Source of the DNA: Ferrovibrio sp.
Lineage (GTDB): Bacteria > Pseudomonadota > Alphaproteobacteria > Ferrovibrionales > Ferrovibrionaceae
Reading direction: 5' to 3'
DNA: 51,731 bases
Assembly (NCBI RefSeq): GCF_002796975.1
Contig: NZ_PEKV01000013.1
Location: 13,577 to 65,307 of the forward strand
Position 1 is the first letter of the stretch, and every line of letters starts with the position of its first letter. Both the position numbers and the translations under genes were made by a program. The notes beneath the pieces were generated by a model. The model was given only the letters and a program-made list of their open reading frames with translations, was not told where the DNA came from and ran no database searches. Below are positions 18,267-20,689 of the stretch, piece by piece.

Positions 18267-18854
18267 TTACTTCGCCACCGCGCCGCTGTCGTTGAACAGT
18301 TTGCCGCGCAGGTTCTTGTCGGAATATTCGTATTCCGGCATCGCCTTGAGCTGATCTTCGGTCAGCGTGGTGCGCAGCGTGTCGCCGCCATCGGCCACGG
18401 TCAGCGCACTGGGCGCCACCGCCACCGCGCGCTCGCCCAGGCCCATGAAGCCGCCGACGCCGACGCCGACGATCAGGTTCCGCACCTTGCCGGCCGCGTC
18501 GAGCTGGACCGCCTGCACCTCGCCGACCTTTTTATTCTCGGCATTCTTCAGGTCGGCGCCGATCAGTTCCTTGGCATCGACACCGGCCATGGCGCCGCCG
18601 GTCGCATCCGGCGCTGCCGACATGGTCGTGCTGCTTCCTGGCATGCCGGAGGTGCCGCTGCCCATGCCCCCACTGCCCATACCTTTGTCGCCCATGCTCG
18701 GCGGACTGGTCGCAGGACCGGTCTGGTCGGTGGCGGCCGGCGGGGTGCCGGCGCCCGGTGCGGTGCCGGGACTGCGATCGGTCTGCGCGAAGGCGGCACC
18801 GCCCAGGCCAAGCCCGAGCACGGCTGCTGTCAGGGTCAGATGTCTTGCTTTCAT
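18267..18854 (-). CDS. exported PRC-barrel domain protein with Gly/Met/Ser-rich linker
   Basis: A 195-aa protein. The N-terminus MKARHLTLTAAVLGLGLG with G-G-A-A-F-A-Q is a Sec signal peptide with probable cleavage after A-F-A. A low-complexity linker rich in Pro, Thr, Gly, Met and Ser (G-M-G-S-G-G-M-G-S-G-T-S-G-M) covers about residues 30-85. Residues about 90-185 form a PRC-barrel domain: G-A-D-L-K-N-A-E-N-K-K-V-G-E-V-Q-A-V, then I-V-G-V-G-V-G-G-F-M-G-L-G-E. Similar periplasmic PRC-barrel proteins are common in alphaproteobacteria, sometimes stress-induced, with no defined activity. GGAGG precedes the ATG by 6 nt. Confidence 0.84.
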   Translation of the reverse strand: MKARHLTLTAAVLGLGLGGAAFAQTDRSPGTAPGAGTPPAATDQTGPATSPPSMGDKGMGSGGMGSGTSGMPGSSTTMSAAPDATGGAMAGVDAKELIGADLKNAENKKVGEVQAVQLDAAGKVRNLIVGVGVGGFMGLGERAVAVAPSALTVADGGDTLRTTLTEDQLKAMPEYEYSDKNLRGKLFNDSGAVAK

Positions 18855-19043
18855 AGTCGCCTCCATATGTGTGAACCGGATCGCCGGTCGCTTCGGCAGC
18901 GACGCCGCGTTCCTGGCCAACCCCGTCGATGCCGCACAGGTTCCCTTGCCCAAGCAGGGTTGAAAGCCGGATCATGTTTTCTATATGTTCCTATAGTTGC
19001 ATTGGCAGTCGCCCTGGACAAGGAGAAGGCGTAACAAGCTAAA
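18855..19043. other. non-coding: leader of the PRC-barrel gene, with hairpin
   Basis: No gene is visible. On the minus strand this is the 5' leader of the PRC-barrel gene and contains the hairpin GTCGCT/AGCGAC (18887-18903) and the CCGG-ATCG-CCGG inverted repeat (18876-18887). The GC-rich leader of about 120 nt ends where the sequence turns AT-rich (18970-19000, TTTTCTATATGTTCCTATAG), which is probably the promoter zone for both directions. Confidence 0.45.
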
Positions 19044-19092
19044 ATAAGGGTGCTATAAGCCTGCAATAAGCCCCAAATAAGAGTGGGATAAG
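19044..19092. repeat. five ATAAG motifs at exact 11-bp spacing
   Basis: ATAAG occurs at 19044, 19055, 19066, 19077 and 19088, each exactly 11 bp after the last, separated by unrelated 6-bp spacers. Because the period is not a multiple of three and each copy contains TAA, the stretch cannot encode protein on this strand. The periodicity of about one helical turn places all copies on one DNA face, as in tandem sites for OmpR/PhoB-type regulators. It lies between the PRC-barrel gene and purB, which diverge. From 19093 to 19300 I see nothing beyond the purB leader and GAGG ahead of its ATG. Confidence 0.7.
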
Positions 19093-19300
19093 CCGGTCTT
19101 GAGCCCGGACAAAGCCGCCACAGGCTTGTACCAGCACGCCGTAGATATCCCTAAATTACTGATTAAACTTCATAAAGCTGCGGCAAACCGCGTTCTTGAT
19201 CGCCTGCCGCGAAGCCGCTACACCAGCCGCGGCCATCCGGCCGGCTTTCCGCCCGAGTCCTTTCTGATCCGCTGTCCGCCCCTTCTTTGCTGAGGCTTCG

Positions 19301-20689
19301 ATGATCCCGCGTTACACCCGTCCCGAAATGGCCGCCATCTGGGAACCGGAGCAGCGGTTCCGCATCTGGTTCGAGATCGAGGCGCATGCCTGCGACGCCC
19401 AGGCCGCACTCGGCGTGATCCCCAAGGCCGCCGCCAAGGAAGTGTGGAAGAAGGGCAAGTGGAAGGTTGATCGCATCGATGAGATCGAACGCGAGACCAA
19501 ACATGATGTCATCGCCTTCCTGACCAACCTCGCTGAATATGTCGGGCCCTCTGCCCGCTTCGTGCACCAGGGCATGACCTCGTCGGATGTGCTCGACACC
19601 TGCCTGAATGTACAGCTGGTGCGCGCCGCCGATCTGCTGATCGCCGGCACCGACCGCGTGCTGGCCGCACTGAAAGACCGCGCCTTCGAATTCAAGCTGC
19701 TGCCCACCATCGGCCGCAGCCACGGCATCCATGCCGAGCCGACCACCTTCGGTCTCAAGCTGGCCGGCTTCCATGCCGAGTTCCAGCGCGCGCGCAAGCG
19801 CCTGGTGGCGGCGCGCGAGGAAGTCGCCACCTGCGCGATTTCCGGCGCGGTCGGCACGTTTGCCAATATCGATCCCTTCGTCGAGGAATGGGTCGCCAAG
19901 AAGCTCGGCCTGCAGCCGGAGCCGGTCTCGACGCAGGTGATCCCGCGCGATCGCCATGCGGCTTACTTTGCGCATCTCGCCGTGGTGGCGTCTTCCATCG
20001 AGCGGCTCGCCACCGAGATCCGCCATCTGCAGCGCAGCGAAGTGATGGAAGCGGAGGAGTTCTTCTCGCCCGGCCAGAAGGGCTCGAGCGCGATGCCGCA
20101 CAAGCGCAACCCGGTGCTGACCGAGAACCTGACCGGTCTGGCGCGCCTCGTCCGCTCGGCCGTGGTGCCGGCGCTGGAGAATGTCGCGCTGTGGCATGAG
20201 CGCGACATCAGCCATTCGTCGGTCGAGCGCGGCATCGGGCCCGACGCCACCATCCATCTCGACTTCGCGCTGCATCGCCTCGCCGGCGTGATCGAGAAGC
20301 TGGTGGTCTATCCCGACAACATGATGAAGAACCTCGACCGCTTCGGCGGCCTGGTGCATTCGCAGCGCATCCTGCTGGCACTGACGCAAGCCGGGTTGAG
20401 CCGCGAGGATTCGTATCGTCTGGTGCAGAAGCATGCGCTGAAAATCTGGCAGCATGGCGGCGACTTCCTGCAGGCTTTGCTGGCCGAGAAGGAAGTTACG
20501 GCCAAGATCAAGCCCAGGCAGCTGACGGCGCTGTTCGACCTCGGCTATCACCTCAAGCATGTCGACACCATCTTCGCCCGGGTCTTCGGCAAGGAGGGCG
20601 TCACGCCCGGAGTCAGGAAGGGTAGCCTCCGTAAGGGCAAGGCGAAGAAAGCCGCCCCGAAGAAGAAGGCAGGGAAGAAGAAGCGTTGA
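19301..20689 (+). CDS. purB: adenylosuccinate lyase with Lys-rich C-terminal extension
   Basis: Cleaves SAICAR to AICAR and adenylosuccinate to AMP plus fumarate in purine synthesis. At 462 aa it is slightly longer than the Bacillus-type enzyme (about 430). The fumarase/aspartase signature S-S-A-M-P-H-K-R-N-P is at about residues 263-272, with the catalytic Ser in the flexible loop; G-M-T-S-S-D-V-L-D-T is near residue 91 and the catalytic His in T-I-G-R-S-H-G-I-H-A near residue 140. The last 25 residues are a basic tail (K-A-K-K-A-A-P-K-K-K-A-G-K-K-K-R) outside the catalytic fold. GAGG lies about 6 nt before the ATG. The gene is 47 bp upstream of the dehalogenase. Confidence 0.95.
   Translation: MIPRYTRPEMAAIWEPEQRFRIWFEIEAHACDAQAALGVIPKAAAKEVWKKGKWKVDRIDEIERETKHDVIAFLTNLAEYVGPSARFVHQGMTSSDVLDTCLNVQLVRAADLLIAGTDRVLAALKDRAFEFKLLPTIGRSHGIHAEPTTFGLKLAGFHAEFQRARKRLVAAREEVATCAISGAVGTFANIDPFVEEWVAKKLGLQPEPVSTQVIPRDRHAAYFAHLAVVASSIERLATEIRHLQRSEVMEAEEFFSPGQKGSSAMPHKRNPVLTENLTGLARLVRSAVVPALENVALWHERDISHSSVERGIGPDATIHLDFALHRLAGVIEKLVVYPDNMMKNLDRFGGLVHSQRILLALTQAGLSREDSYRLVQKHALKIWQHGGDFLQALLAEKEVTAKIKPRQLTALFDLGYHLKHVDTIFARVFGKEGVTPGVRKGSLRKGKAKKAAPKKKAGKKKR

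Follow-up and report, generated by a model that had tools for sequence, protein, structure and literature searches.

A lineage-specific family of promoter-linked arrays, one short word per DNA turn, with words that interchange between orthologous loci

Introduction

The plasmid parC/ParR centromere consists of arrays of 10–12 bp direct repeats to which a polar superhelix of protein binds, and the Pho box has the consensus CTGTCAT. ArcA, of the OmpR/PhoB family, binds sites made of multi-copy direct repeats, with 3–5 repeats at 11-bp spacing (PMC3798270), and the MerR-like BldC forms a head-to-tail filament on direct repeats with a 9-bp unit, AATTXXXX(C) (PMC5859096). The TAACTGA repeats of the Beggiatoaceae are contiguous, identical 7-bp units of one word, mostly within a few nucleotides of start codons (PMC4679880). 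The alphaproteobacterial LexA (SOS) operator, reported for Caulobacter, is GTTCN7GTTC (PMC12700426).

Here we describe an array of short direct repeats upstream of purB in Ferrovibrio. It is one member of a lineage-specific dispersed element and not a feature specific to purB; regulation dedicated to purB is rejected, since the same element stands at many unrelated loci.

Results

The window is the whole 51,731-nucleotide stretch of DNA that was analysed. It contains five exact ATAAG words on the plus strand at 11-bp steps (19044, 19055, 19066, 19077 and 19088; 19044..19092), just as a sequence-only reading had reported, and adjacent ATAAG-N6-ATAAG pairs occur four times in the window against 0.01 expected from dinucleotide shuffles. 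Two degenerate units, AGAAG at 19024 and ACAAG at 19034, extend the array upstream at 10-bp steps, and the whole phased array (19024..19092, plus strand) runs in steps of 10, 10, 11, 11, 11 and 11 bp. It lies in a divergent gap that is, as first read, 446 bp long and non-coding, between the gene for a PRC-barrel protein (PF05239; 18267..18854, minus strand, ATG at 18854) and purB (adenylosuccinate lyase, 462 aa, assigned by DNA matches to annotated purB; 19301..20689, plus strand, ATG at 19301), ~190 bp from the start of the former and 208 bp from that of the latter. The array is upstream of the probable purB promoter, TTGATC-N16-CTACAC (19196..19223, plus strand), which was assigned by inspection and is conserved in G001, G005 and G008.

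A second, sigma70-like promoter stands upstream of the array. Its -35-like TTGAAA (18960..18965, plus strand) is followed after 16 bp by a -10-like TATATG (18982..18987, plus strand), recognised from the sequence and the family pattern, which lies inside a box, TGTTT-N6-TGTTC (18975..18990, plus strand). This box repeats at 11 bp and differs at one position from the LexA box of alphaproteobacteria, GTTCN7GTTC (PMC12700426). Downstream of the array there is a hairpin with a T-rich tail (TGCGGCAAACCGCG TTCTT; 19179..19192, plus strand), and a similar hairpin and tail lie downstream of the orthologous G001 array; the window hairpin might, as a weak suggestion, be the end of a transcript that starts near 18995.

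The sequence-only reading had proposed a scan for further sets of three ATAAG at 11-bp period, and this pattern occurs 27 times in the window genome against 0 for the reversed control. Two-copy ATAAG patterns occur 69 times against 8 for the control at period 11, and 34 against 2 at period 10; together the ATAAG matches amount to 26 arrays with four or more words each. The second family is ACGAA at period 10, with 61 matches against 1 for the control, and makes up 18 arrays in the same genome. A third, CAAAAC, occupies seven places, all in G008, and for it the reversed-pattern control gives no information, since this word is unchanged by reversal. The shuffle and reversed-pattern controls lead us to reject a chance origin of the arrays.

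Among the 61 relatives searched, exact three-copy ATAAG at 11 bp occurs only in four members of the genus, and three-copy ACGAA arrays occur in 5 of 10 genus members. Outside the genus, 6 of 381 sampled genomes have one or two scattered matches, of a kind that chance or simple repeats would give. When all genomes were scanned for four-copy ATAAG, the matches listed were mostly near-identical repeats in AT-rich genomes. The viral matches inspected were exact repeats or coding-like, and a virus origin was set aside. In a purB tree, the five array-rich species group apart from four sister species. Within the sister clade, otherwise poor in arrays, a box in G002 is followed by seven ATAAG with a step of exactly 10 bp (L303, G002:C1 near 2439836), an array missed by the 11-bp search, so 11-bp searches under-count. 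Since ATAAG or ACGAA led to most of the array loci, the census of words is incomplete.

In each element a single short word stands in 4 to 15 direct copies, with one copy to each DNA turn. Distances between ATAAG words are almost only 10–11, 20–22, 31–33 and 42–44 bp, so skipped units keep the helical phase. The best-fit period is 10.65 for ATAAG and 10.05 for ACGAA; the exact 11-bp period first claimed for the window holds for its five ATAAG, but not for its full array, which has 10-bp steps too, or for the family, with steps of 10 or 11 bp. The step in ACGA[AG] arrays is coupled to the fifth base of the word, with 11-bp steps after ACGAG and 10-bp steps mostly after ACGAA (Fisher P = 9e-14). 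Spacers have position preferences as well, C-N-Y-S-R-A in 11-bp units and C-N-R-R-A in 10-bp units, which contradicts the initial view that they are unconstrained; the broader idea of a constrained, helically spaced array is supported. Spacer identity is 0.42/0.48 between neighbours and 0.38/0.53 between arrays; neighbouring spacers are thus no more alike than those of different arrays, which argues against recent tandem duplication and rules out a minisatellite or slippage repeat. Both halves of the alternative that the sequence-only reading had left standing, chance or slippage, are in this way rejected.

Phased curvature of the DNA, and not a word read by a protein, could in principle be the selected property. 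The CAAAAC class of G008, a phased A-tract, has predicted curvature (z 2.4), but ATAAG and ACGAA arrays are predicted from a wedge table to be no more curved than their own shuffles (mean z 0.28 and -0.56, respectively), and curvature needs neither strand polarity nor an exact word. We regard this explanation as very improbable.

Some arrays adjoin other repeats. Phased 10-bp units of GATANG/ATACG lie next to ACGAA or ATAAG arrays at L202, L209, L211, L212, L173 and L298, like joined blocks of different words, and a 21–22 bp (two-turn) repeat of the ATAGACCTGACTCAGCNCCAA or AATGGGAC type is found near 10-bp arrays or in their place (L246, L262, L268, L316 and L341). Before some ATAAG arrays (L137, L142, L151, L155, L160, L161, L165, L169 and L272), GTTTCACGG occurs twice in direct orientation, 12–14 bp apart, with its last copy abutting the first ATAAG (GTTTCACGGAATAAG). 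By its sequence GTTTCACGG looks like half of a parS site, and a full parS palindrome, TGTTTCACGTGAAACA, lies beyond the array at one orthologous locus in two species, ~20 bp away at L147 (4122-4137) and 75–100 bp away at L168 (G001). An explanation by parS and ParB was rejected: most arrays have no parS, half-sites are confined to a subset, and the full site is near one orthologous pair.

The arrays are nearly all intergenic, with 2 of 62 inside weak ORF calls, and a coding role is rejected on this ground. Their flanking genes include those for ribosomal proteins S4 and S6, alanyl-tRNA synthetase, a tRNA-modifying enzyme, dehydroquinase, DNA polymerase III alpha, SecG and PurB, and no common functional theme was found among the annotated ones. 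With gene starts taken from a simple ORF caller, 16 arrays in co-directional contexts are same-sense and 10 opposite, so array polarity does not follow the genes; five contexts are convergent. Nor does polarity appear to follow the replichore, since the strands of the listed G005 sites are mixed by inspection.

Array polarity does follow the upstream box. About 70% of arrays stand downstream, on the same strand, of a sigma70-like promoter containing TGTWS-N6-TGTTC (~30% have no recognised box), and ATGTTC occurs within 220 bp upstream of 61 of 101 arrays and downstream of 1 of 101. Of the 72 boxes, 39 contain TGTWS-N6-TGTTC; in a G000 sample (L215-L234) it occurs 3 times per 400 kb, and this sample was chosen away from known arrays, contains no further arrays and is not an unbiased density estimate. 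Across the 72 boxes, TTG[ACT] peaks 25–26 nt before [AT]TGTTC, which gives 16–17 bp sigma70 spacing to TATATG/TATAAT; the upstream box has the layout of a sigma70 promoter, in the window TTGAAA-N16-TATATG. There are 11–22 boxes per genome in array-rich species and 1–4 in others, and the distance from box to array shows no helical phasing. GTTCN7GTTC is exact in 23 of 72 boxes and is GTTTN7GTTC in the window, and from this likeness LexA control of the array promoter is a possibility. Several box sites without arrays lie directly before ORF-like sequence (L287 and L300; L288; L292; L301) and may be ordinary promoters or true LexA targets.

Because polarity is fixed relative to the promoter, a role at the RNA level is kept open. 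The array would be transcribed from the box promoter, either as a leader or as a small RNA, and its words would be read by a protein that binds RNA. The polarity and the sigma70 spacing fit such a role, as do the hairpins with T-rich tails after the window array and its G001 ortholog and the predicted folding of the window RNA, which is no better than that of shuffles (z +0.88). The strict step of 10 or 11 bp, with phase kept across missing units, is instead a signature of the double helix; terminator-like sites are not clearly enriched downstream of arrays (13 of 101 on the same strand, 8 of 101 on the opposite one), and Rfam covariance models matched no array, only tRNAs, across 12 sources. 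We judge an RNA-level role unlikely; it is the main rival of the protein filament that we propose below.

Most of the discovery was carried by the box, and the box was learned on array loci and then tested on different ones. Fifty-nine box sites outside the training loci were taken without regard to arrays and scored for at least four words at steps of 10 or 11 bp. Array chains lie downstream of 19 of these 59 sites (20 if L325, a masked N run, is included) and upstream of at most 2, with some sites orthologs of each other and so not all independent; lag-10 autocorrelation is 0.314 downstream and 0.261 upstream. L325 (G008:C48) has a box and a CGAAC start followed by a stretch masked as N, so the array there is unreadable. 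The blind sites brought new words, TTGGC (L312, L319 and L327), ACTGG (L290, L299 and L315), GAACC (L329) and ACAGG (L285), and 21–22 bp types at L316 and L341, including a 21-bp GACCT type; the ATAAG array of the sister clade is among the blind-test arrays as well.

The arrays fall into ~31 ortholog groups, a count that is approximate because two larger groups merge neighbouring loci. Orientation is kept in 75 of 76 ortholog pairs, including all 14 word-flip pairs; L156 and L174 are the only orthologous pair with opposite array orientation. At the purB locus the word is ATAAG in G000, G001 and G004 and ACGAA in G005, and G008 has the box and a CAAAAC array. The sequence-only reading had held that absence of the array from orthologous loci, along with no bound protein, would speak for chance or slippage, and the purB loci of G001 and G004 keep the ATAAG array. 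The flip from ATAAG to ACGAA was checked by hand at seven orthologous loci, purB and six others (L136/L166/L173 vs L211; L142/L272 vs L247; L171 vs L209/L235; L143 vs L260; L149 vs L246; L150 vs L268).

This interchange bears directly on the original proposal of a Pho-box or OmpR-type operator of purB, which is not supported: dozens of housekeeping loci with no relation to each other share the architecture, and the core word changes by locus and species. In its more general form, one OmpR/PhoB-type response regulator would bind every ATAAG array as it would a normal tandem operator. The direct repeats spaced at 11 bp and the five or more copies do resemble ArcA sites, with their 3–5 repeats at 11-bp spacing (PMC3798270). 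However, the word can differ between orthologous loci, one architecture is common to at least eight words, the flanking genes have no functional theme, and five contexts are convergent by ORF calling, and we find a single regulator improbable.

Orthologous arrays also retain almost no memory of their spacers (z = 0.95 for ACGAA, 2.6 for ATAAG), and their identity exceeds that of unrelated arrays by only 0.02–0.03, compared with 0.03–0.14 for the flanks. Together with whole-array word switches at a fixed place, this is what would be expected if a putative active process, such as templated or transcription-coupled repeat synthesis, made or rewrote arrays that have little or no function of their own. 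Against this, neighbouring units are not more alike than distant ones, and the intergenic flanks have themselves diverged, so the loss of spacer memory is not far beyond background. Such rewriting seems to us decidedly unlikely.

Discussion

At the level of sequence, the dispersal, anatomy, grammar, promoter linkage, fixed polarity, positional conservation and word interchange of these arrays are established. As to what they do, the reading we prefer, tentatively and with a little less than even confidence, is that they are a platform on which several related putative proteins bind DNA head-to-tail and with a fixed polarity. What is read would be double-stranded DNA, and the DNA-binding proteins would form a related set in which each member recognises one word. 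They would assemble head-to-tail, one protomer per turn, into a polar filament that covers the beginning of the transcribed region, and the filament would block or insulate transcription between the promoter of the array and that of the neighbouring gene. The constant 10–11 bp step would follow from a protein scaffold held in common, and the different words from divergence of the paralogs. The co-operative tandem-binding protein of the sequence-only reading is still plausible in this form, but a set of proteins with different word preferences is needed and not one.

The preserved helical phase, the coupling of fifth base and step, the margin over controls, the conservation of place and orientation, and the blind test all argue for such a filament, and we also count for it that curvature is not raised and that the window RNA has no excess folding. 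Several observations count against it. Several paralogs that differ in specificity would be required for the eight or more words; polarity is fixed to the promoter and not to the flanking genes, which a function at the RNA level explains equally; the distance from box to array is not helically phased, and ~30% of arrays have no recognised box; and the ACGAA period of 10.05 differs from the 10.5 of relaxed B-DNA, with the spacers constrained too.

Taken together, it is possible, at somewhat less than even confidence, that this is a chromosomal element not described before, in which place, polarity and the one-word-per-turn grammar are kept while word and spacers are replaced, and which would be either read by a diversifying polar filament family or actively rewritten. 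A strict grammar with interchangeable words, genome-wide, is unusual. If proteins read the words, the arrays would offer a natural series for the study of specificity change in filament-forming regulators; if the arrays are rewritten, they would point to a new repeat-making activity in bacteria. The promoter box is a simple handle for finding every copy, and the related species allow locus-by-locus comparison, also where the word upstream of purB or another housekeeping gene has been swapped. We found no precedent for word interchange behind a common promoter in the open-access literature, and an earlier description elsewhere is possible.

Several known systems share parts of this design. The upstream box is like the LexA operator in its half-sites, its 11-bp period and its overlap with the -10 (PMC12700426), but its first half-site is often GTAC or GTTG and no SOS theme is seen in the annotated flanking genes. 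Nor is the array itself a LexA site. Unlike parC/ParR, the arrays have no parMR-type partner that we could see, and they are dozens of dispersed chromosomal copies with differing words. With the TAACTGA sets they share many intergenic, one-orientation short direct repeats near housekeeping genes (PMC4679880). Unlike the TAACTGA/STRR heptamers, they have 5-bp words, variable spacers of 5–6 bp, several words and linkage to a promoter, and they stand mostly ~100–250 bp from start codons and not within a few nucleotides of them.

Like BldC sites, which are read by a polar protein filament, the arrays have a variable number of directional direct repeats (PMC5859096), but their units are 10 or 11 bp and not the 9-bp AATTXXXX(C), their words are others, and no BldC-like protein is tied to them. 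The direct repeats ~11 bp apart of OmpR/PhoB operators are found here (11 bp in the window, 10 or 11 bp in the family). One consensus across sites is not, and would hold only within one word class, and the window units ATAAG/ACAAG do not match the Pho box CTGTCAT. As in ArcA sites, direct repeats at 11-bp centre spacing occur in more than two copies with whole-turn gaps (PMC3798270). ArcA has one consensus per regulator and mostly 2–5 repeats, whereas the arrays reach 15 copies, with words that interchange, a promoter fixed upstream and no functional regulon. The TAACTGA sets are the nearest described repeat family, and the ArcA and BldC sites are the nearest described operators, precedents for multi-copy direct-repeat binding of which neither has interchangeable words; if the arrays are indeed read by proteins, they would be a new variant of multi-copy direct-repeat operators.
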